DNA from: a virus
Virus record (IMG/VR): IMGVR_UViG_3300021197_000362
Span: 1 to 29,180 of that record
Reading direction: 5' to 3' (one strand)
Length of the DNA stretch: 29,180 nt
Position numbers and translations under genes: made by a program. A model generated the notes under the pieces. That model was not told the origin of the DNA. It saw only the letters and a list, made by a program, of their open reading frames with translations, and did not search any database. The stretch's first letter is position 1. Each line of letters opens with the position of its first letter. Below are positions 3,322 through 29,180 of the stretch, in pieces.

Positions 3322-3747
3322 TTAGTTACAAACTCCACCGTCTTCTGAGTTATTAAACCCACTGTCACCACAGCCGTACTTACCGTCGTTGTCAGTGTCA
3401 CAGGACCGTTGCCACGTAATCATGTCAAACGATAAGCCTTCAGACCACGGTACGTAAGCTTTACACCATTGGTGTGATCCTACTGTGTAGTCGTCTGCTG
3501 CTACTGGTACGTAGTCACGCTTAGTCCACGGCTTCTGTACACGAAAGAACGTGTCTTTGTTACCCATCAGTTGTCTCTTGAACAGAGAACTACTGGGTGT
3601 GCTGATGTAGATTTCTTGGTTCTCTGACAGGGTGTAAGTAGATCCGTCGTCGTAGTTGACAACAGTTTCTGCTTTAGCTCCCACAGCAACCAGTGACATG
3701 AGGAATACGGTTGCAAAACCGAGGATCATTTCGTTGATAGACTTCAT
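3322..3747 (-). CDS. Secreted small protein with signal peptide, four cysteines and a DxDxDG loop
   Basis: The 141-residue product has a clear N-terminal signal peptide: MKSINEM, a hydrophobic core (ILGFATVFLMSLVAVG), and an AKA cleavage site near residue 26. The mature part has four cysteines (C95, C116, C126, C140), enough for two disulfides, and a DTDNDG stretch (117-122) that resembles an EF-hand-like calcium loop. The start ATG overlaps the TGA of the CPAC redox gene (ATGA), so the two are translationally coupled. Export by the host Sec system is expected, so it should act in the periplasm or outer surface rather than in the capsid. No family was recognised. Possible roles are lysis aid or superinfection exclusion, both inference. 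The coupling to a redox protein fits a disulfide-bonded product. Confidence 0.7.
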   Translation of the reverse strand: MKSINEMILGFATVFLMSLVAVGAKAETVVNYDDGSTYTLSENQEIYISTPSSSLFKRQLMGNKDTFFRVQKPWTKRDYVPVAADDYTVGSHQWCKAYVPWSEGLSFDMITWQRSCDTDNDGKYGCGDSGFNNSEDGGVCN

Positions 3748-3974
3748 TGTATAAGTTCTCCTACGCTATTTAGGGCTTCTTTAAACTCTCTTGAACCACC
3801 AAAGTGGTAAAATATCTGAGGAATACTCCTCTTGCCACTCATGGCTTCTACTAAGTCCCAACCGGCTTGACCCGGAGGTATATGTACGTACTTGTACTTT
3901 AGTTCGTGTTCTTTTGCTAACTTCTTGGCTCTACGACACGCAGGACACCAATCAGCACCGACTATAGTAATCAT
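3744..3974 (-). CDS. Glutaredoxin/thioredoxin-fold protein with CPAC active site
   Basis: A 76-residue protein of minimal glutaredoxin size. It opens with a beta strand (MITIVGAD), then the redox motif W-C-P-A-C at C10-C13, a helix, and a cis-proline segment SIPQIF (P52) followed by GG (59-60), the usual glutathione/partner groove elements. It would reduce or exchange disulfides in the cytoplasm. The obvious phage partner is the class II ribonucleotide reductase at 16114-17985, whose C-terminal cysteine pair needs an external reductant. Another possibility is handling of the cysteine-containing secreted protein encoded immediately downstream, to which it is coupled by an ATGA overlap. The CPAC motif differs from thioredoxin CGPC and classic glutaredoxin CPYC. 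The family call is confident; the partner is inference. Confidence 0.88.
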   Translation of the reverse strand: MITIVGADWCPACRRAKKLAKEHELKYKYVHIPPGQAGWDLVEAMSGKRSIPQIFYHFGGSREFKEALNSVGELIQ

Positions 3975-4336
3975 GTGGTTGACGTATTAAACGTAAGTCC
4001 AGTGTAAATTAAATCAAAGGTTATTAACGCAGTGACATCACCTCCTGCTGAACTGGCTACTCTTAATCTGTCTGTAGGGTGTAAAATAAACATAGCACCG
4101 TCTGAAAGCTCTAAGTAATCTTTGGAGGTTAGTGGTTTAGCGTTAAAAATGTAAAACTTGGCAGTATATGAGCCATCTCCGTCAGTATCGTTCTCTACAA
4201 AGGCTGTCATGTTGTTTGTAGAGCCGCCGTGGTTACTCAAAAACAGGTAGTTTATGTGTGCAGAGTAACCCTCAGGCACTTCAAAAACAGTTGTTGTGCT
4301 TGTTGACGTTAGCGTTACGCTTTTTGTAAATAACAT
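3971..4336 (-). CDS. Small beta-rich protein, possible virion or decoration protein
   Basis: Encodes 121 residues starting MLFTKSVTLTSTSTTTVFEV. I chose the ATG at 4336 because it overlaps the TAA of the endolysin gene (TAATG), a junction type used throughout this phage; a TTG 15 bases upstream is the only longer option. The sequence alternates Thr/Ser/Val strands with short turns (VPEGYSAHINYLFLSNHGG, SYTAKFYIFNAKPL, TALITFDLIYTGL), suggesting an all-beta fold of the kind seen in small head-decoration or receptor-binding tip proteins. It has no signal peptide, cysteine or catalytic motif. It sits between the endolysin and the redox gene in a coupled string. No family was recognised; a structural role is inference from composition. 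Confidence 0.65.
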   Translation of the reverse strand: MLFTKSVTLTSTSTTTVFEVPEGYSAHINYLFLSNHGGSTNNMTAFVENDTDGDGSYTAKFYIFNAKPLTSKDYLELSDGAMFILHPTDRLRVASSAGGDVTALITFDLIYTGLTFNTSTT

Positions 4337-4680
4337 TAGGAATATGTCCAAATTACAGGGACAGTTCCCCGTGTGTCAACGTGAATAAAGTCACCAGCGA
4401 CCCCTATGCCAGTAAATCCCATAGATAGAGCTTCTCTTATTAACGTGTACCGATGTGCAGCGTTTGTTATTTTTATGTCTGCTGCTATGCCTTGCGCGTG
4501 GGTTCCCGGTACGTCCTTTTTAGCTTCTATGGGGTGGCTAGGGCTTCTGTAGCCGCTGGTGATAACAAAAGGGAAACCGCAGTTGTCCCTGAGAGTGTCT
4601 AACTTTAGTAAAAACTCTTCCTCCATACGGTTCTCACCAGTATGTTGACAGTTAAACTCTTCTTTAGTGAAGTATTTCAA
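4336..4680 (-). CDS. M15-family zinc peptidase, phage endolysin
   Basis: The 114-residue product matches the peptidase M15 (D-Ala-D-Ala carboxypeptidase/DUF882-like) pattern used by many small phage endolysins. Zinc ligands are visible: H61 and D68 in THAQGIAADIKI (H-x6-D) and H100 in DFIHVD, with D97 near the catalytic acid position; SGYRSPSH (42-49) is the typical arginine-containing strand. It should cleave the peptide part of peptidoglycan at lysis. I start it at a TTG (4680), preceded by AGAGGAAG at ideal spacing, giving (M)KYFTKEEF, the usual opening of this family; a TTG at 4707 would add nine residues. There is no signal peptide, so it needs a holin or similar. Its stop overlaps the next start (TAATG). 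Confidence 0.9.
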   Translation of the reverse strand: MKYFTKEEFNCQHTGENRMEEEFLLKLDTLRDNCGFPFVITSGYRSPSHPIEAKKDVPGTHAQGIAADIKITNAAHRYTLIREALSMGFTGIGVAGDFIHVDTRGTVPVIWTYS

Positions 4681-4728
4681 GAATCTTCCTCTTGACACTC
4701 TTGACAACCGCAGTTACAGCCTGAAAGT

Positions 4729-11884: not shown

Positions 11885-13527
11885 ACATCGTCTTTTGTGA
11901 CATTGAAACTGACGGACTAGACCCTAGTGTTATCTGGTGTGCTGTCTGTCTACACAACGGAGAAAGCGAGGTAATATGCAATGAGCAAGATTTCAAGGAT
12001 TACGTGGCTCGTAAAGCGCCAGTTAACTTCATCTTCCACAACGGAATTGGCTTTGATGTTCCTGTGGTTGAGCGTCTTTGGAACTTTACTTTTGACAGGA
12101 GTATGGTCACTGACACTCTAGTCCTCTCTAGGCTTGCTGACCCTAGCAGGTCTGGTGGACACTCTTTACGTAACTGGGGCAACATCTTGGGCTACGCCAA
12201 GGGAGACTACGAGGATTGGACTAGGTTGACTCCTGCCATGATCGACTACTGCATACGTGACGTAGAGTTGACTGAGGCGGTGTACAAGAGACTACGTGTG
12301 GAACTCGACGGTTTCTCACGGGCGTCACAAGACCTAGAACACGAGGTGCAGTGGATCATACAGGAGCAGGAGCGTAACGGGTGGCTACTAGATCAGCGAC
12401 TGTGCCACACGCTGTGCGCTAGGTTCAAGGAGAGTATGTATGCTATTGAGGAAGAACTCCAGAGGGTGTTCCCACCTATTGTTGAGGAAAGGTGGTCTGA
12501 GAAGACAGGCAAGCGCCTTAAGGATAAGGTTACGGTCTTCAATCCTGGTTCGCGTCAACAGGTGGCAGAACGACTTGAAGCTAAGGGTGCGGTATGGTCG
12601 GAACTCACGCCGTCAGGTAGACCGCAGGTGGATGAGAGGACGCTGGAGGAGAACAAACACGTACCGGAGGCTGTTTGTGTACTGGAGTACCTATTACTCC
12701 AAAAGCGCTACGCTCAAGTCTCCTCTTGGATAGAACACGTTAAGGACGATGGCAGGGTACACGGAAGGGTTACAACAAACGGTGCAGTTACCGGACGCAT
12801 GACGCACCAGACCCCAAACATGGCGCAGGTTCCCTCAGTTAACTCACAGTTTGGCAAGGAGTGCCGTGACTGCTGGATTGTACCAGAGGGACGCAGGCTA
12901 GTGGGTGTTGACGCTAGTGGACTAGAGCTACGTATGCTGGCTCACTACATGGGAGACGAGGAGTTTACTGATGTCCTACTTAGAGAAGACATTCACACCA
13001 GAAATCAAACTGCTGCAGGACTTGCAACTAGACCTCAGGCAAAGACTTTCATCTATGCTTTCCTATACGGCGCAGGAGACGCAAAGATTGGAAGCATCGT
13101 CGGAGGAACTGCAGGAGATGGCAGTAAACTTAGGAGGCGCTTTCTACGAAACACACCTTCTCTTGAAGCTCTACGAGAACGAGTTGGAGAAGCGTCTAGG
13201 AAAGGTCACCTCGTTGGACTCGACGGACGGAAACTCTGGGTCAGATCAGAACATAGTGCACTGAATACCTTACTACAGGCAGCAGGTGCTATCGTTATGA
13301 AGAAGGCTCTAGTGTTACTAGACGACTACGCAACGCAACACAAGATTGACTACAAATTCATAGGGAACGTGCATGACGAGATACAATCGGAGGTGGTTAC
13401 AGAACAAGCAGAGAAGTACGGGTGGCTTGCAGTCGAGTGCATCAAGGCGGCTGGTCTTTCATTTGACCTCAGGTGTCCTCTCGACGGAGAATACAAGGTC
13501 GGACAAACGTGGTCGGAGACACACTGA
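11881..13527 (+). CDS. Family A DNA polymerase with 3'-5' exonuclease (T7-like, short)
   Basis: Encodes 548 residues. DEDDy exonuclease: FCDIETDG (D7, E9), GFD (D59) and Y123-x3-D127. Polymerase: motif A GVDASGLELRMLAHY (D344), motif B RPQAKTFIYAFLYGAG (K388, Y392), motif C VHDE (H498-E500). The motif B stretch is almost the T7 sequence. Tyr at the position equal to E. coli Pol I F762 and T7 Y526. It is clearly shorter than T7 gp5 (704), so the thioredoxin-binding loop region is probably reduced or absent. Start is TTG, chosen because the exonuclease motif begins six residues later. Stop overlaps the next start (TGATG). All catalytic residues are present. Frames at 12440 and 12971 are shadows. 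Confidence 0.95.
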   Translation: MNIVFCDIETDGLDPSVIWCAVCLHNGESEVICNEQDFKDYVARKAPVNFIFHNGIGFDVPVVERLWNFTFDRSMVTDTLVLSRLADPSRSGGHSLRNWGNILGYAKGDYEDWTRLTPAMIDYCIRDVELTEAVYKRLRVELDGFSRASQDLEHEVQWIIQEQERNGWLLDQRLCHTLCARFKESMYAIEEELQRVFPPIVEERWSEKTGKRLKDKVTVFNPGSRQQVAERLEAKGAVWSELTPSGRPQVDERTLEENKHVPEAVCVLEYLLLQKRYAQVSSWIEHVKDDGRVHGRVTTNGAVTGRMTHQTPNMAQVPSVNSQFGKECRDCWIVPEGRRLVGVDASGLELRMLAHYMGDEEFTDVLLREDIHTRNQTAAGLATRPQAKTFIYAFLYGAGDAKIGSIVGGTAGDGSKLRRRFLRNTPSLEALRERVGEASRKGHLVGLDGRKLWVRSEHSALNTLLQAAGAIVMKKALVLLDDYATQHKIDYKFIGNVHDEIQSEVVTEQAEKYGWLAVECIKAAGLSFDLRCPLDGEYKVGQTWSETH

Positions 13528-14102
13528 TGGAGATAGCAATGGAAGAAATACCTGAAAACCCAATGGCTAAATACGCAAAAAACTTAGATCGCTATAAGTT
13601 TGTTGAGGGCGAGTGGTGGTACTATTATCCAGAGGACGGAACTAGCATTTCTAGTGGAAACCATACTAGAGAAAGAGCGACTACACTGAGAAAAAGACTT
13701 GACTCATTTATGTACGTCAACGGGAAGTACATATCTAAGTCTCACCCGCTACACAAACCAGGAAGATACAAAACGTTTACTGACGCAGCTTTTGACAGTC
13801 TAGCGAAGTACGAACTTAGTCGTGAGGGACAGGTGTACATCATTACCAACCCTAACTTCCCTGAGTGGGTCAAGGTAGGCATGGCTGTGGACTCAGAGGA
13901 CAGACTCAACGGATACCAAACGTCGTCACCGTTCAGAGATTACTCGCTGTTCACTAACTGGTCTGTGGCTGACCGACGATCTGCTGAGTCAGAGGCACAC
14001 AGTCTGCTAGAGAAAACTTATGGTCGCAAGGGTGAGTGGTTCAACTGCACACCAGAGCAAGCCAGAGACTCTATCGCTGAACTAATGGAGCAACATAAAT
14101 GA
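13527..14102 (+). CDS. GIY-YIG nuclease-domain protein (T5orf172-like)
   Basis: The 191-residue protein has a C-terminal GIY-YIG-type domain: VYIIT (103-107) and VKVGMA (115-120) as the GIY and YIG equivalents, R126, an E-containing helix (ESEAHSLLEK) and GEWFN (169-173). The overall motif pattern resembles T5orf172/MUG113-type GIY-YIG modules. The N-terminal 90 residues hold two look-alike Trp/Tyr strand units (RYKFVEGEWWYYYPEDG; FMYVNGKYISKSHPLHK), probably a DNA-binding module. It sits between polymerase and exonuclease and is joined to both by overlaps, so it is part of the operon. Homing endonuclease or host-DNA-degrading enzyme are the alternatives. Start ATG overlaps the polymerase stop. 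The upstream in-frame extension (13473) is ignored. Confidence 0.85.
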   Translation: MEIAMEEIPENPMAKYAKNLDRYKFVEGEWWYYYPEDGTSISSGNHTRERATTLRKRLDSFMYVNGKYISKSHPLHKPGRYKTFTDAAFDSLAKYELSREGQVYIITNPNFPEWVKVGMAVDSEDRLNGYQTSSPFRDYSLFTNWSVADRRSAESEAHSLLEKTYGRKGEWFNCTPEQARDSIAELMEQHK

Positions 14103-23355: not shown

Positions 23356-23588
23356 TAGTAAGTCCCTCCGTCAATCGTCCCTGTAGACATGGTTCCTGTA
23401 AACGTCAAATTAGGAATTGTTACAGTGCCTGTGAATGTAGGAGAAGCTAAGTCAGCTTTAGTTGCAACCGCAGTTACAATCGCGTCAAACTCTGTGTTAA
23501 ACTCTGTGCCGCGAATAACCTTGTTAGCGTGTCCAGAAGCCAAACTGTCCTTAGCAGCAAAGTTAGTTGTCTTTGTATAATTGCTCAT
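23355..23588 (-). CDS. Small tail-fibre-associated protein
   Basis: Encodes 77 residues: MSNYTKTTNFAAKDSLASGH, followed by NKVIRGTEFNTEFDAIVTAV and TFTGTVTIPNLTFTGTMSTG. I recall this opening from many marine phages (xNYTKTTxFAAKDxL...RGTEFxxEFDAI), with a C-terminal TFTGT repeat typical for trimeric beta-helix fibres. It may be an adaptor or the N-terminal anchor of a fibre. It is overlapped by the upstream gene's stop (ATGA). The real receptor-binding part is not in this protein, so it may work with a larger fibre elsewhere. Confidence 0.75.
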   Translation of the reverse strand: MSNYTKTTNFAAKDSLASGHANKVIRGTEFNTEFDAIVTAVATKADLASPTFTGTVTIPNLTFTGTMSTGTIDGGTY

Positions 23589-25150
23589 ATTGTTTTACCC
23601 ATAAGTGCTAATACGTTGATTTCTTGGAGAGATAAAGCAAAGCCGTTTATTTCTGACTCAAGACCAATTGTTACTACAGAGCCATTACCTGTGGTGTTAA
23701 TAGTAGGTCTGGTTGTTAGATCTCCACCAGTAAACTCAGCAACAGTGTACTCTGAGGCTGCTTCATTAAAGTAGTACGGAGTCTGATTACCTACCGTAAA
23801 CTCTTTCGTACTGTACGTTGTGCCAAAGTCGTAAGCCCACTTTATAAACACAGAAGAGCTATTAGCACCTACCAGTGTTGGTCTAAGTTTCTTTAACATC
23901 TTAAGTTTAGACGGATCACCAAAAGTTAAGCTAGGGCTGTAGTACCTAAAGCTGTAACTAGCTGATTTAATCACACCACCATCGTTGTACTCATCTACAT
24001 AACCTGAGTATTTACCTACGCCGTCGTCTGTTCCTATCAATAGCGTCCCGTCTGTTTTTCTTTCGTAAGACTTAAAAGGAGCAGAAGTCCACATTGTTAC
24101 CCTGTACGCTCCGTTTTCTAGTCTTGTTTTTAAGTCAAAGCAATACGTTGTGTTTTGGTCTGGAAACGTAATTAAGTAAAAAGAGTTCTCAGGACTATAT
24201 ATAGAAGCTGTTGGTGCGGCTCTTGTGGCTAGTAACGAAATAAACTCAGTTTTTACATTTAAACTTAAGTCAGATATAGGCATAGACTTTTCTTGTATAG
24301 TCCGACCAAAGCTTCTCAAGCCAGTGTCTGACACAAACAAGACATCAGTGCCAATGTGCTGCACAGAGTTTCTACAGATGCACCCAACGCCTGCTACAGT
24401 GTCTGCTAACGCCATTTGAGCAGGACTAAACGCATTAGCGTACACGAGGATGCTGTGTTTACCTAGTATAATTAGGTTGTTGTTATGAGCAACTAAGGCT
24501 CGTACTTCATCATAACCATCAGGCCACGCCTTAGATACATCTATAGAACCACTGGAACCGCCGGTAAAATCTGTTCCAATTAACAGATCAGACCAGTAGA
24601 TTCTTTGGGTGTCTGCGGCGTTATCTACGATCCACAGTCTACCATAAGCTGCTAGAGCCTCGTGACAGTACAATGTGGCGCTAGTAGTGCTGCTGGTGAC
24701 AGTACCAAACGTCCGGAGTCCTGTAGCGTTGTCGTACACCAGCGGCTCGTGTCCACGTTGGAAGAAGTACGCCTTATCGTTAAAGTTTACAATCTTCCAG
24801 TTGTCTGCAGAAATTGTGTACGAACCCGGAGTAATGTCTGTAAGCGTGTCGTCAGGGTTAGTTGACTGTGTGGTCTTAAATATCTTGTTGTTGCCTGTGA
24901 CAAATATTTCATCGTTACCTGCGTCATCGTAAAAGTAGTGCAGCTTAACAGCGTAATCAGAACCTAGAGGTGTGTTTACAGCGGTTAACAGGTCTACACC
25001 CTTGCGTGAAGCAATACGCCCACGCTTGTCAATCACAGCGTTATCAGCAATGTCAGCATAAGAAAAATCCTGACCAATTGGAGAGTCTTCTGTGTTAACT
25101 CCTTTAAAACCCGGAGCAACTAAGTTAATGCTTTGTAGAGGCAGTGCCAT
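23585..25150 (-). CDS. Tail structural protein, beta-propeller-like
   Basis: A 521-residue protein starting MALPLQSINLVAPGFKGVNT, then RGRIASRKGVDLLTAVN. It has many beta-strand units with Tyr, Trp and Gly turns (YFFQRGHEPLVYDNATGLRT; RIYWSDLLIGTDFTGGSS; LIILGKHSILVYANAFSP), a spacing that suggests a repeating-blade fold such as a propeller, then a C-terminal beta region. Its place downstream of the head-tail adaptor matches the podoviral tail tube/nozzle position (T7 gp12/P22 gp10 equivalent). No family motif was recognised, so 'tail nozzle' is inference. Cysteines (GVGCICRNS) are few. Confidence 0.7.
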   Translation of the reverse strand: MALPLQSINLVAPGFKGVNTEDSPIGQDFSYADIADNAVIDKRGRIASRKGVDLLTAVNTPLGSDYAVKLHYFYDDAGNDEIFVTGNNKIFKTTQSTNPDDTLTDITPGSYTISADNWKIVNFNDKAYFFQRGHEPLVYDNATGLRTFGTVTSSTTSATLYCHEALAAYGRLWIVDNAADTQRIYWSDLLIGTDFTGGSSGSIDVSKAWPDGYDEVRALVAHNNNLIILGKHSILVYANAFSPAQMALADTVAGVGCICRNSVQHIGTDVLFVSDTGLRSFGRTIQEKSMPISDLSLNVKTEFISLLATRAAPTASIYSPENSFYLITFPDQNTTYCFDLKTRLENGAYRVTMWTSAPFKSYERKTDGTLLIGTDDGVGKYSGYVDEYNDGGVIKSASYSFRYYSPSLTFGDPSKLKMLKKLRPTLVGANSSSVFIKWAYDFGTTYSTKEFTVGNQTPYYFNEAASEYTVAEFTGGDLTTRPTINTTGNGSVVTIGLESEINGFALSLQEINVLALMGKTI

Positions 25151-25161
25151 ACATTAGTCTC

Positions 25162-25809
25162 CTACGGGGTATACCACACGACTTCTTCGGGGTGCTTCTG
25201 TGCGTCCAGAGCAATCGCGTCAGCCATAAACTTTTCAGCAATACTAAAGTACTCAGGAACTGATGTTCCACCTGTCTCGCCGCGCTCACGAGCTAACAGA
25301 GCTATCGCTAGGTGCATTACAGGTTGACTAGGTATAACTAACTTATCAGTATCAGCACTTAACTCAGCGTTCCTAAGAGTACAGTTAAACCGTAAGTCAT
25401 ATACAGCGTCTGGCTTTGGGTATACGTCTACCTGTGTGTCACCATCAGAGTCTACGCCGTTGTACGTGTAGTACTCAGGAGCGCCTGATGCCGGTGTACC
25501 TATCAAGTACTTGTCGTCAAACCAACGCTGGGATTGGTATTCCATAGTTAAGTTTGAAGTATCGTTAATTACGTTCAGTACTTTAATTTTGTTTTGTGAT
25601 CCTGTAAGGACATAGTTAAACGTACCAGCAGAAGTTGTCACAGTAAGCGTTGTTCTCAGAGCAGACCAATCCCAAGAGTCTTCCACAAGTTTCTTAGCGT
25701 CGTTAACAAAGTCACCCGCCAGCTTACTGTACGTGCTCTCTGATACAGAAGACACTTCTTCCTCTCTCATGCGTCTAAGTACGTTGTTAACTAAATTTAA
25801 ATATGTCAT
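25162..25809 (-). CDS. Head-tail adaptor (T7 gp11 / SU10-adaptor-like)
   Basis: The 215-residue protein opens MTYLNLVNNVLRRMREEEVS, a helical start, with a second helix (KLAGDFVNDAKKLVEDSWDW) and then strand units LRTTLTVTTSAGTFNYVLTG, the general pattern of podoviral portal adaptors (P22 gp4, T7 gp11, SU10-type). The W-D-W motif after the second helix is frequent in these proteins. It attaches under the portal and receives the tail nozzle. Position before the beta-rich tail gene supports this. The start overlaps the previous stop (TTATGA). Family assignment is moderately confident. Confidence 0.75.
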   Translation of the reverse strand: MTYLNLVNNVLRRMREEEVSSVSESTYSKLAGDFVNDAKKLVEDSWDWSALRTTLTVTTSAGTFNYVLTGSQNKIKVLNVINDTSNLTMEYQSQRWFDDKYLIGTPASGAPEYYTYNGVDSDGDTQVDVYPKPDAVYDLRFNCTLRNAELSADTDKLVIPSQPVMHLAIALLARERGETGGTSVPEYFSIAEKFMADAIALDAQKHPEEVVWYTP

Positions 25810-26477
25810 AAGTATTCCCCAAACAGACTGTTGAGTATTTTGTCAAATGGGTTATTCTCTGTAAAGTACGTGTCTAATTTTTGTAGTCTTTCGTTAACTT
25901 TAGTTGTTCTAAAGTCGTCTAACGTGCCTTTTGGCTCGCCCATAAAGTAGTCTTCTGTCCAATCGTTGTCACCAGCTTCCTGTTTTTCTCTAAAGTAGTC
26001 TCTCCAACTAGGATCTTCGTCTAGCACGTTACGTTGGCCTTCTATGTGAGCCTGTATTTGGTTCATGTCGTAACCACGTCGGTACATATCTTCTACAGCG
26101 TTATTTCTACGGTACATCTGTGTTTGCAAGTCTCTGTCCATTGTCTGCGTAGAGTTTTCGTAGTAGCCTACTCCGTCAAACATGCCTCTTCTACGTTGTC
26201 TCAAACGGTCATCCATAGCTCCTTGCCAGCTTGGGTTAGGACCAGAGTAAAATGTGGGAGTACTTTCGCCCGGAACATTAGAACCAAACAACGTACTAAA
26301 GTCTTGGCTGTAGTCTTTGTCGTAGCTAAACTGGTTATCAGCTAAAAACTGATTTCTATCGTCAATTACTGACTGAGAAGCCGCCTGTTGCTGGGCGCTT
26401 CCTAGTACCATTGTTTGGTTGGTTCCCGCGACGTTCATTACGTAGCCCACGCCCGGAACATAATTTATTGATGCCAT
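25806..26477 (-). CDS. Unknown protein between adaptor and Cys-rich gene
   Basis: Encodes 223 residues, MASINYVPGVGYVMNVAGTN onward. The N-terminal third has a beta hairpin and Gln/Ala segment (VLGSAQQQAASQSVIDDRNQ), the middle is highly charged and Arg-rich (DDRLRQRRRGMFDGVGYYEN; MYRRNNAVEDMYRRGYD), and the end is acidic/aromatic (DWTEDYFMGEPKGT). It is predicted largely helical, no cysteine, no membrane segment. No family was recognised. Coupling to both neighbours (TAATG upstream, TTATGA downstream) indicates co-expression with the virion genes, so a structural or assembly role is likely. Confidence 0.6.
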   Translation of the reverse strand: MASINYVPGVGYVMNVAGTNQTMVLGSAQQQAASQSVIDDRNQFLADNQFSYDKDYSQDFSTLFGSNVPGESTPTFYSGPNPSWQGAMDDRLRQRRRGMFDGVGYYENSTQTMDRDLQTQMYRRNNAVEDMYRRGYDMNQIQAHIEGQRNVLDEDPSWRDYFREKQEAGDNDWTEDYFMGEPKGTLDDFRTTKVNERLQKLDTYFTENNPFDKILNSLFGEYL

Positions 26478-29180
26478 TATACTATTCCTTTTCCGCTAAA
26501 CAGGCCACCTGAACCAAACAAGTAGTCTACGATTGGAAACTCTCTACCCGCTAAAAGAGTCGGATCTCCTGTAATTGTGGATGATGGCCCTGTAAACATT
26601 CCCGGCGAGAAGCCACCACCACCGCCACCACCGCCACCGCCGCCCGGAGGAGTAACAGGAGGAGTAACAGTAGGAGTAACAGGAGGAGTACCCGTACTAC
26701 ACTCTTCTTCGTTTGCTGCGGCATATACTGGATCGTCACAAGGATCTACAACTCCTACACAAATGCCTTTTTCGTTAAACTCTTGACCTTCTGGACACTC
26801 TTCACACAAGCTCTCTACAGTAGCTCCGTTGTCACAAACAGTAGTACTAGGACAAACACCGCCTTCGTGGTCACTAGGTCTAGACCCATCAGGACACTTT
26901 TCGCACCCACTTTCTTGTGTAGCTCCGTTACCGCAGCCGGGAGGCAGAACTACGTCTTTCTTTTCACATATACCTTTTTCGTTAAACTCTTGACCTTTTG
27001 GACACTCTTTACACTCACTTTCTACAGTAGCTCCATTGTAGCCACAAACCTCAGTTGGATCAACACCTCCTCCACCACCGCCACAGTTAACGTCCCACCA
27101 TATTTGTTGCTCTTGAAGAGCAAAAGTTAGAGCACCTTCTTCTGGATAATCGTCTTCACACGTTATACCACCCGGACCTGCTTTACTAACACATACACCG
27201 TCGTTATTAAAGTCTTGACCTTCTGGACACTTTTCGCACAGATCCGGTATAGCTCCACTAGGCGTTATTCCATCATTAGCCTTACAGTCTACTTCTTTTT
27301 TACACTCTGGTAGATCTTTGTTTTCTTCCTTAGCACAGTAGGCGTCACTTCCTTTGCACAACTCACTTTCTGGGTCTTCGTCACAAGGGTCTACTGGTGG
27401 GTCAACCTGATCACCGCAGCCGTCAATAGAATCTTCTTTTTCACCTGCACGTTCGTATCCGTCTGGACACAGACAGGCCTGATCATCGTCACTCCACTCA
27501 CCGACTTCAGTTTCGCATCTAAAGTCTACTGTTACATCACAGTCGTCAAGTGTTCCTTGAATTATACCGCCTGTTGTTTCTTGAAGACTTGAGTTTTTAC
27601 CGCCAGTACAGTTTACGTACCCAGCGGCTCGACAGGCTTCTTGATTGTCTTCGTAGTACTCCTCCTGATCGCAGTTTTCAGAGGTAAAAAGCAAAAAAGG
27701 ATTGTCAACATCAGGTACTAATTCGTCTCTAGCTCTTTCAGCAAGTATAGCAGCAATGTACCCGTAACCAGACGAAATTAAAATGTCGAGTAAATTGCCC
27801 CAAGTTTTGTCTTCGGTGTCTTCCCATGCGCCTTTAATCTTATCCCAGATGTTTCCAAAAACTTCTGAAATTACACCAACGGGGTCGTTTATAAAGTCTT
27901 CAATAGATTTACCAGCTTCTATTAAAGCCTCTTCTATGTCTCGTATGGTTGCGTTAGGAGTAAGTACACCCGGAATAGGAAAGTCGATACCCGGAATAAC
28001 TAAAATAGCTGATAAATTAACGCAATCTTTTCCCCATTCAAAATCTGGTCCTCTGTCGGGGCTATTAGGGTTTAAACACTTATCAGAAAGCGTAGGACTA
28101 ATAACCTCCATAAAATCTTTAAAACACTGCTCTAAGTTAGCTGGGTCAGAACACTCGCCAATTTTGTTTTTTATTTTGTCGTACAGACCTCTCGCGCCAT
28201 CTACAACTTCTTTACCGTACTCGTCGTACAGTCCCTGAAGCCAATCCTCTCCGCACTCTGCTTCTGTAGGTGCATAGGTGCCGTCACCGCAGTCAAACCA
28301 CGTAGTTATGTCTACTCCGCAGCGCTCTGCGTTTTCTTCAGTAATTTTGTCGCAGCTTCCCGTTCCTTCCAAATCAGGACAGTCTTCTGAGTGTTTTGCA
28401 AACGAGCCATCAAAACAACGAGTGTAATAAGGAGCTTGTAAATCTTCGTCATTTAAGTCAACTAGATTACCGTTTTCGTCAAATGTAAAACCACAGTCTT
28501 CAGCGTTTTCTTCCTTAATAATATCGCAAGGGGCTTTAGGCGGTCCGTCGGGACAAGCGTCCTCGTATTTTGAATAAAAACCATCGCCGCAATCAACGTA
28601 GTTTCCTAAGTTTATTTCACAATGTTCTGCTTCTGATTTAGTAATTACAACAGCACTAGCTATATAATCACAACTTTCTGTGCCTGCTAAATCAGGACAG
28701 TCGTGTATACTGTTGGCAAAAATTCCTCCACCACAGTTAAACAACGTGTTAGTATTATTATCGCAGTCTTCTTGTGATCTCGCGTAAACAGGGCGTTCTA
28801 CTGTTGTGGGAGGTACAGGGTTACCGTTCTCATCGTCTGGGTTTGCTACGTCAAAAGTAACTAAATTATCAGTACATTCAACTAAGTTGTCTAAATCTGT
28901 TTCACATTCTTCAGCGTTTTCTTGTATAATTAGTGAGCAGTCTTCAAGTAAACTTTTATCCTCTTCGGGTCTACATCTTCCACCAATAACAACGCCGCGT
29001 GAAGGCACTCCGTCAAACTCGTCATAACAAGTGTCGCCGTCTTCCTTTGACGGGCGTACGCTCCACCAACCGCCATCAAAACCTATGTCTCCTAAAATAC
29101 GATCAAGGATTAAACTTCCTTGAAAATGATCGCGTACGCCGCAGTTTACATAATACTCACCATTAGGAACAAAAGCACCC
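26477..29180 (-). CDS. Giant cysteine-rich repeat protein, N-terminus beyond right edge
   Basis: The frame is open through the right edge: about 900 codons are visible with no in-frame ATG near 29008, so a GTG at 29008 is probably not the start. The upstream residues include YYVNCGVRDHF and DTCYDEFDG, continuing the same repeat style. By count 57 cysteines are visible. N-terminal repeats follow the plan EENAExC ... DCGDGxY ... CPDxxGTxSCDxI (about five units). Then comes a helical middle (IWDKIKGAWEDTEDKTWGNL; ILISSGYGYIAAILAERA), four C-terminal repeats NGATxExxCxxCPxGQ...GxC, a Pro/Thr linker, a run of 11 glycines and a cysteine-free tail. No signal peptide can be checked. Likely an extracellular-stable, disulfide-bonded adhesin/fibre or virion-surface protein; unproven. 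Confidence 0.8.
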   Translation of the reverse strand, partial: GAFVPNGEYYVNCGVRDHFQGSLILDRILGDIGFDGGWWSVRPSKEDGDTCYDEFDGVPSRGVVIGGRCRPEEDKSLLEDCSLIIQENAEECETDLDNLVECTDNLVTFDVANPDDENGNPVPPTTVERPVYARSQEDCDNNTNTLFNCGGGIFANSIHDCPDLAGTESCDYIASAVVITKSEAEHCEINLGNYVDCGDGFYSKYEDACPDGPPKAPCDIIKEENAEDCGFTFDENGNLVDLNDEDLQAPYYTRCFDGSFAKHSEDCPDLEGTGSCDKITEENAERCGVDITTWFDCGDGTYAPTEAECGEDWLQGLYDEYGKEVVDGARGLYDKIKNKIGECSDPANLEQCFKDFMEVISPTLSDKCLNPNSPDRGPDFEWGKDCVNLSAILVIPGIDFPIPGVLTPNATIRDIEEALIEAGKSIEDFINDPVGVISEVFGNIWDKIKGAWEDTEDKTWGNLLDILISSGYGYIAAILAERARDELVPDVDNPFLLFTSENCDQEEYYEDNQEACRAAGYVNCTGGKNSSLQETTGGIIQGTLDDCDVTVDFRCETEVGEWSDDDQACLCPDGYERAGEKEDSIDGCGDQVDPPVDPCDEDPESELCKGSDAYCAKEENKDLPECKKEVDCKANDGITPSGAIPDLCEKCPEGQDFNNDGVCVSKAGPGGITCEDDYPEEGALTFALQEQQIWWDVNCGGGGGGVDPTEVCGYNGATVESECKECPKGQEFNEKGICEKKDVVLPPGCGNGATQESGCEKCPDGSRPSDHEGGVCPSTTVCDNGATVESLCEECPEGQEFNEKGICVGVVDPCDDPVYAAANEEECSTGTPPVTPTVTPPVTPPGGGGGGGGGGGFSPGMFTGPSSTITGDPTLLAGREFPIVDYLFGSGGLFSGKGIV
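26612..26644 (-). repeat. Triplet repeat encoding polyglycine
   Basis: Eleven consecutive GGC/GGT codons (read leftward) encode a glycine run, adjacent to a 12-base-like repeat (AGGAGGAGTAAC and variants, about 26647-26690) encoding PVTP units. Triplet runs of this kind change length by slippage in whole codons, so linker length may vary between relatives without frame loss. Confidence 0.85.
26766..27240 (-). repeat. Direct repeats encoding the C-terminal Cys modules
   Basis: Near-identical DNA stretches occur at about 26766-26835 and 26973-27042 (offset 207 bases), encoding NGATVESxCxECPxGQEFNEKGIC; shorter, more diverged copies lie near 26891-26935 and 27211-27250. High DNA identity of the first pair, including silent positions, points to a recent duplication or ongoing recombination within the gene. 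Confidence 0.75.

Follow-up and report, generated by a model that had tools for sequence, protein, structure and literature searches.

A hypervariable, often cysteine-rich protein at a fixed position beside the head-tail adaptor gene in an uncultured podovirus-like phage family

In an uncultured podovirus-like family, one fixed slot is occupied by different alleles, and, judged by sequence comparison, the giant cysteine-rich protein analyzed here is one of them. The slot is hereafter the position of the long ORF that has a holin-like gene on one side and the head-tail adaptor gene on the other. Its products may be modular stalks or adhesins displayed on the virion, held by their C-terminus and with disulfides formed after lysis, a reading to which we give an even chance. 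The window, i.e. the stretch of DNA under study, is an entire virus record of 29,180 bp and an incomplete genome, the portal gene being cut at the opposite end. ORF 26477-29179 (minus strand) encodes 900 residues with exactly 57 Cys, as the earlier note had counted, and runs off the end of the record, leaving its 5' end open. The size given in that note therefore holds for the visible part, but not for the whole protein, whose N-terminal part is missing from the record. The Cys content of the slot gene is 6.3%, versus 0.8-1.1% in other genes of related contigs, i.e. about sixfold higher, and the gene is conserved in relatives: it is not a chance product.

The two repeat families, helical middle, poly-Gly linker and Cys-free tail first described from the letters alone were all found in the protein, and its modules are as follows.

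26477-29180, minus strand: Cys-rich slot protein, 57 Cys in 900 residues (ORF reading; homologues in IMG/VR)
28253-28735, minus strand: N-terminal Cys-repeat region of the CGDGxY...CPD...SCD family, residues 149-309 (repeat positions)
27680-28234, minus strand: conserved helical, partly hydrophobic core, residues 316-500 (family comparison; low-confidence model)
27083-27673, minus strand: second Cys region, residues 503-699 (comparison with L003)
26759-27046, minus strand: NGATxES-C-xx-CPxGQ repeats, residues 712-807 (repeat positions; low-confidence AF2 model)
26612-26683, minus strand: Pro/Thr and poly-Gly linker PPVTPTVTPPVTPPGGGGGGGGGGG, residues 833-856 (sequence; family comparison)
26480-26611, minus strand: Cys-free, putative C-terminal anchor peptide GFSPGMFTGPSSTITGDPTLLAGREFPIVDYLFGSGGLFSGKGIV, residues 857-900 (family comparison)

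The CGDG-x-Y/F...C repeats start at residues 149, 197, 255 and 297, the last one being short, and the NGATxES-x-C-xx-C repeats at residues 715, 751 and 784. AlphaFold modeling, which had been proposed as a check, was run on the latter repeats and on the core, and gave models too poor for a verdict on the fold: short hairpins of low confidence for the repeats (pLDDT 62.6, 16 sequences), and a poor model (pLDDT 49.5, 10 sequences) for the middle (approximately residues 316-500), which is hydrophobic and predicted to be mostly helical. A hydropathy scan indicated no clear transmembrane helix in this middle, KD 1.6 being reached by only 6 of 61 family members. The helical core was found in 29 members, including L074, which has 2 Cys yet retains the core of the window protein.

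Near relatives of the window protein are few in IMG/VR (L002, L003). Compared to L003 it is a mosaic, with residues 601-720 being 92-100% identical, and the N-terminal third 26-48%. The related protein of L003 begins MDDTVEGMPYRDWLCENVSQKYC... directly downstream of the holin-like gene. According to L003, the stretch missing from the window contains the portal end, scaffold, capsid and two fibre genes (one with an S74 chaperone), then a 155-aa protein, the holin-like protein and the start of the slot gene.

A search of IMG/VR for homologues with a co-occurring adaptor gene, also proposed at the outset, did find homologues, with the slot beside the adaptor. The downstream adaptor of the window has 564 relatives in IMG/VR, and in clade 1 a long slot ORF is present in almost every locus of that database whose sequence extends upstream of the adaptor; it abuts the adaptor gene or sits one small gene further upstream. 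In most loci the slot directly follows a 125-aa holin-like gene, whose counterpart in the distant locus L087 is annotated as a holin (phrog_3427, 5.6e-32). The surrounding late operon comprises portal, capsid, fibres and adaptor. Downstream of the slot gene, the window contains:

25806-26477, minus strand: 223-aa Cys-free protein between slot gene and adaptor, also in L002 and L007
25162-25809, minus strand: head-tail adaptor, PF24175 SU10_adaptor (Pfam profile), the conserved downstream flank of the slot
23585-25150, minus strand: tail nozzle/head-closure-like protein (phrog_3287, phrog_578, phrog_5107)

Small, unrelated-looking Cys-free proteins are found between slot and adaptor in the window (25806-26477, minus strand), in L072 (3193-4017) and in L080 (9162-10004). 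The C-terminus of the 223-aa protein, ...DKILNSLFGEYL, resembles the slot anchor, and the anchor-like C-termini of all three (e.g. DYxxxLNNLL...TGKKV) suggest a shared docking motif. Two rearranged slot genes were also observed. In L112 (2468-6004), the N-terminus of the scaffold protein is fused in frame to the slot protein, and capsid, fibre and holin genes are absent between portal and adaptor, which may reflect a deletion, a defective genome or an assembly chimera. In L055 (907-3775), the slot gene is split into three overlapping frames, by frameshifts or sequencing errors.

No phage in INPHARED matches the window adaptor; by portal, HMO-2011-like phages are the closest in culture, sharing about 25% identity. 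The marine podoviruses HMO-2011 and CRP-1 share with the window family the TerL-portal-capsid-adaptor-nozzle order, and CRP-1 also has a distant relative of the adaptor. In the HMO-2011 and CRP-1 regions examined, unlike in the window family, the coat and adaptor genes have no slot gene between them, and proteins contain at most 5 Cys. In MAG contigs, only two distant adaptor relatives were found (Sphingobacteriales, 58%; Kapaibacterium, 48%), matches too weak to name a host.

The slot is hypervariable. Among 31 loci, median pairwise identity was 93% for the upstream holin-like protein and 88% for the adaptor; over the 300 N-terminal residues of the slot protein it was 22%, versus 20% for shuffled sequences. 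In the pair L023/L029, flanks are 99% identical, heads 21% and C-termini 93%. The C-terminal 45 residues of slot proteins fall into a few conserved classes, up to 93-96% identical in pairs with different heads, and are Cys-free in all 61 complete members. The display role advanced in the earlier note is thus partly supported: behind a flexible linker the C-terminal tail, the presumed anchor, is conserved, and the remainder varies as a displayed part would. One slot protein (L006, 386-3253) carries a DUF4214 domain (PF13946, 3.8e-9) at its N-terminus, possibly as a head module.

Stalks are exchanged as well: L047 (2 Cys, Gly/Asp-rich repeats) and L023 (48 Cys) are 98-99% identical in both flanks. 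Following the adaptor of L086, which shares 58% identity with that of the window, led to a sister clade. The slot proteins of that clade measure 470-1178 aa, contain no more than one Cys (0 or 1) and end in a C-terminus similar to the slot anchor, and their stalks consist of Ala-rich coiled coils, PKVDV repeats, Gly/Asp-rich tracts or a collagen domain (L103, PF01391, 4.8e-20). Still more distant, L087 has a collagen-like repeat protein directly after its annotated holin. Since Cys-poor Gly/Asp-rich, coiled-coil and collagen alleles occupy the slot, Cys repeats are one of several stalk chemistries at this position.

The Cys counts of 61 distinct complete slot proteins, ranging from 0 to 84, are all even (61/61). 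They remain so after clustering (50/50, 39/39, 33/33, 26/26, and 15/15 at the strictest level), the samples being not fully independent, due to redundancy and module sharing, and parity applying to whole proteins. By comparison, 15 of 21 other Cys-containing genes in the same loci have even counts. A scan with the anchor motif gave 38 complete proteins, partly overlapping the first set, among which odd counts were 0. We infer that the cysteines of slot proteins would be fully paired as disulfides, without export. Non-zero counts (n=59) are 2 mod 4 in 32 proteins and 0 mod 4 in 27, and because these two classes are about equal, Cys4 metal sites are disfavoured and pairs favoured.

Cytoplasmically assembled phage virions are generally thought to use disulfides little. 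The objection of a reducing cytoplasm, raised in the earlier note, is weaker than stated, as disulfide formation could follow lysis and the phage has its own glutaredoxin. Sec export, another of its suggestions, is unlikely: a simple hydropathy scan found a signal-like hydrophobic N-terminus in 0/61 complete members (the N-terminus of the window protein is missing). Slot proteins are acidic (19% D+E, 6% K+R), with Ca-loop-like motifs threefold over shuffled sequences, and such a composition would suit a part exposed to Ca-rich water.

3744-3974, minus strand: glutaredoxin, 76 aa, CPAC motif, next to TerL (PF00462, 4e-9)

The glutaredoxin gene shares the late-gene orientation, opposite to the ribonucleotide reductase (RNR) operon. 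In the Cys-rich clade, all 8 contigs that have a full-length TerL match contain it, versus 0/7 contigs in the sister clade; RNR splits the same way across both clades, which amount to a single evolutionary contrast. It was not found in Cys-poor contigs inside the clade, which probably end before that region, as judged from gene spacing in related contigs. Work on marine podoviruses has linked glutaredoxin to RNR and to the redox state of the host (PMC6918029). A partnership with the slot protein is possible; glutaredoxin as a dedicated partner of the Cys stalk was set aside, as it is not separable from the co-varying RNR. No thioredoxin (PF00085) was found in the 12 contigs searched, and the Erv1/Alr search was silent in every control genome, and is thus without weight either way.

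These observations can be assembled into the following scheme. From its N-terminus, a slot protein would have a variable head, then the helical core and an extended stalk, and, behind a glycine-rich hinge, the short C-terminal peptide, which would hold it to the particle, probably near the adaptor or neck. In the window allele, the stalk would be made of small repeats braced by paired cysteines. The protein would be synthesized reduced in the cytoplasm and assembled through its anchor, and its cysteines would pair when the particle, freed by lysis, meets oxygenated, Ca-rich water; pairing is most likely on release, since the protein is made in the cytoplasm. The free N-terminal part may make the first contact with host or particle surfaces, and recombination in the conserved flanks would swap whole alleles, and with them stalk chemistries, between phages. 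Against a displayed stalk, the phage already has a separate S74-type fibre, its likely receptor-binding protein, and a simple stalk needs no hydrophobic core. More doubtful is the full version of this scheme, in which a swappable, C-terminally anchored, fully disulfide-paired stalk folds oxidatively only after cell exit, or with help from the late-operon glutaredoxin, and forms a host-interaction cassette of reversed polarity relative to tail fibres.

The slot protein could instead be an internal virion protein, a hypervariable cargo stored in the head through a C-terminal packaging peptide and delivered to the periplasm, where host enzymes would make the disulfides and the hydrophobic core would act at the membrane (defence evasion, superinfection exclusion or DNA passage). 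We consider this unlikely, while giving it more credit than the other alternatives. In its favour are the position of the slot between capsid and adaptor genes, the hydrophobic, helical nature of the core, and the Gly/Ala-rich hydrophobic middles of some alleles and of the sister clade. T4-type internal proteins have a short conserved capsid-targeting peptide and a hypervariable body, an arrangement that slot proteins would share, and a short anchor with a hypervariable body would fit cargo-targeting peptides as well. Unlike in T4, however, the slot peptide is C-terminal, behind poly-Gly, and bodies are of 400-1340 aa with stalk-like repeats. Moreover, the genes downstream of the nozzle gene include three for other large, Cys-free proteins that already look like an ejection set, the collagen, coiled-coil and Gly/Asp-rich replacements resemble stalks rather than cargo, and transmembrane-like segments are marginal.

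A non-virion protein acting, or released, at lysis would account for the position directly after the holin-like gene in most loci and for the holin annotation of the L087 counterpart, but it appears improbable. The endolysin (M15) is encoded elsewhere (window 4336-4707), away from the slot, no signal peptide was seen in the complete members, an anchor with a poly-Gly hinge has no obvious role in a soluble protein, and hypervariability fits a surface part better. Least probable of all is the metal-binding surface of the earlier note, in which the cysteines coordinate zinc or other metals: CxxC pairs are common, two-residue spacing being among the most frequent, but obligatory Cys4 sites misfit the 32/59 counts that are 2 mod 4 and the existence of 2-Cys members, mixed Cys/His or Cys/Asp sites being still compatible with the counts.

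A displayed stalk, our preferred reading, invites comparison with phage tail fibres and with collagen-like or coiled-coil virion stalks. Like these, the slot protein is long, modular and extended, and encoded in a structural operon; one end is conserved, presumably for attachment, the free end is highly variable, recombination swaps occur, and one sister-clade allele has collagen. Tail fibres are usually described with N-terminal attachment (PMC10386132). In the slot protein this polarity would be reversed, the C-terminus being the attachment end and the head 22% identical; further differences are the stalk of probably Cys-paired repeats, the lack of a fibre profile match and the separate S74-type fibres in the genome. 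The small, acidic, tandem Cys repeats also recall LDL-receptor class A and EGF-like domains, and the insignificant Foldseek matches were mostly of this kind, but the slot repeats have no sequence or significant structural match to them.

No relative of the window protein was found in Pfam, PHROG, PDB or phage isolates, in agreement with the initial impression of an undescribed architecture; the close similarity to a tail fibre that would have spoken against it was not found, no tail fibre profile of Pfam or PHROG matching the protein or its relatives. The PHROG matches obtained were weak (tape-measure, E 0.03; unknown function), and the PDB sequence search gave nothing convincing (best E 0.15). 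In tblastn against phage isolates, the window protein had no match beyond chance, and the core alone matched only Microviridae VP4-like proteins (E 2 or worse). The L033 repeats weakly match a hypothetical protein of Stenotrophomonas phages PSH1/SMA6 (E 2e-3). A Foldseek search of PDB with the low-confidence repeat model returned nothing significant (E 0.09 and worse). No Cys-rich or disulfide-bonded phage virion protein of this kind was described in the literature searched, and the slot protein is probably a disulfide-braced stalk displayed on the virion, a kind of component absent from the phage families and literature covered.

In this aquatic phage family, a single locus accommodates up to 84 Cys, always in even number, which bears on whether virions mature oxidatively after lysis. 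The slot also marks a hypervariable, putative display site in a family that has hundreds of members in metagenomes, and points to a gene that may govern host contact in this uncultured family.

Two other window genes deserve mention. At 13473-14102 (plus strand), a protein with a T5orf172/MUG113 domain overlaps the end of the DNA polymerase gene. At 3322-3747 (minus strand), a 141-aa protein with 4 Cys has an N-terminal signal-like hydrophobic stretch ending in AKA and an EF-hand-like DTDNDGKYGCGD; it has no Pfam or PHROG match and is conserved in L228 and L231.
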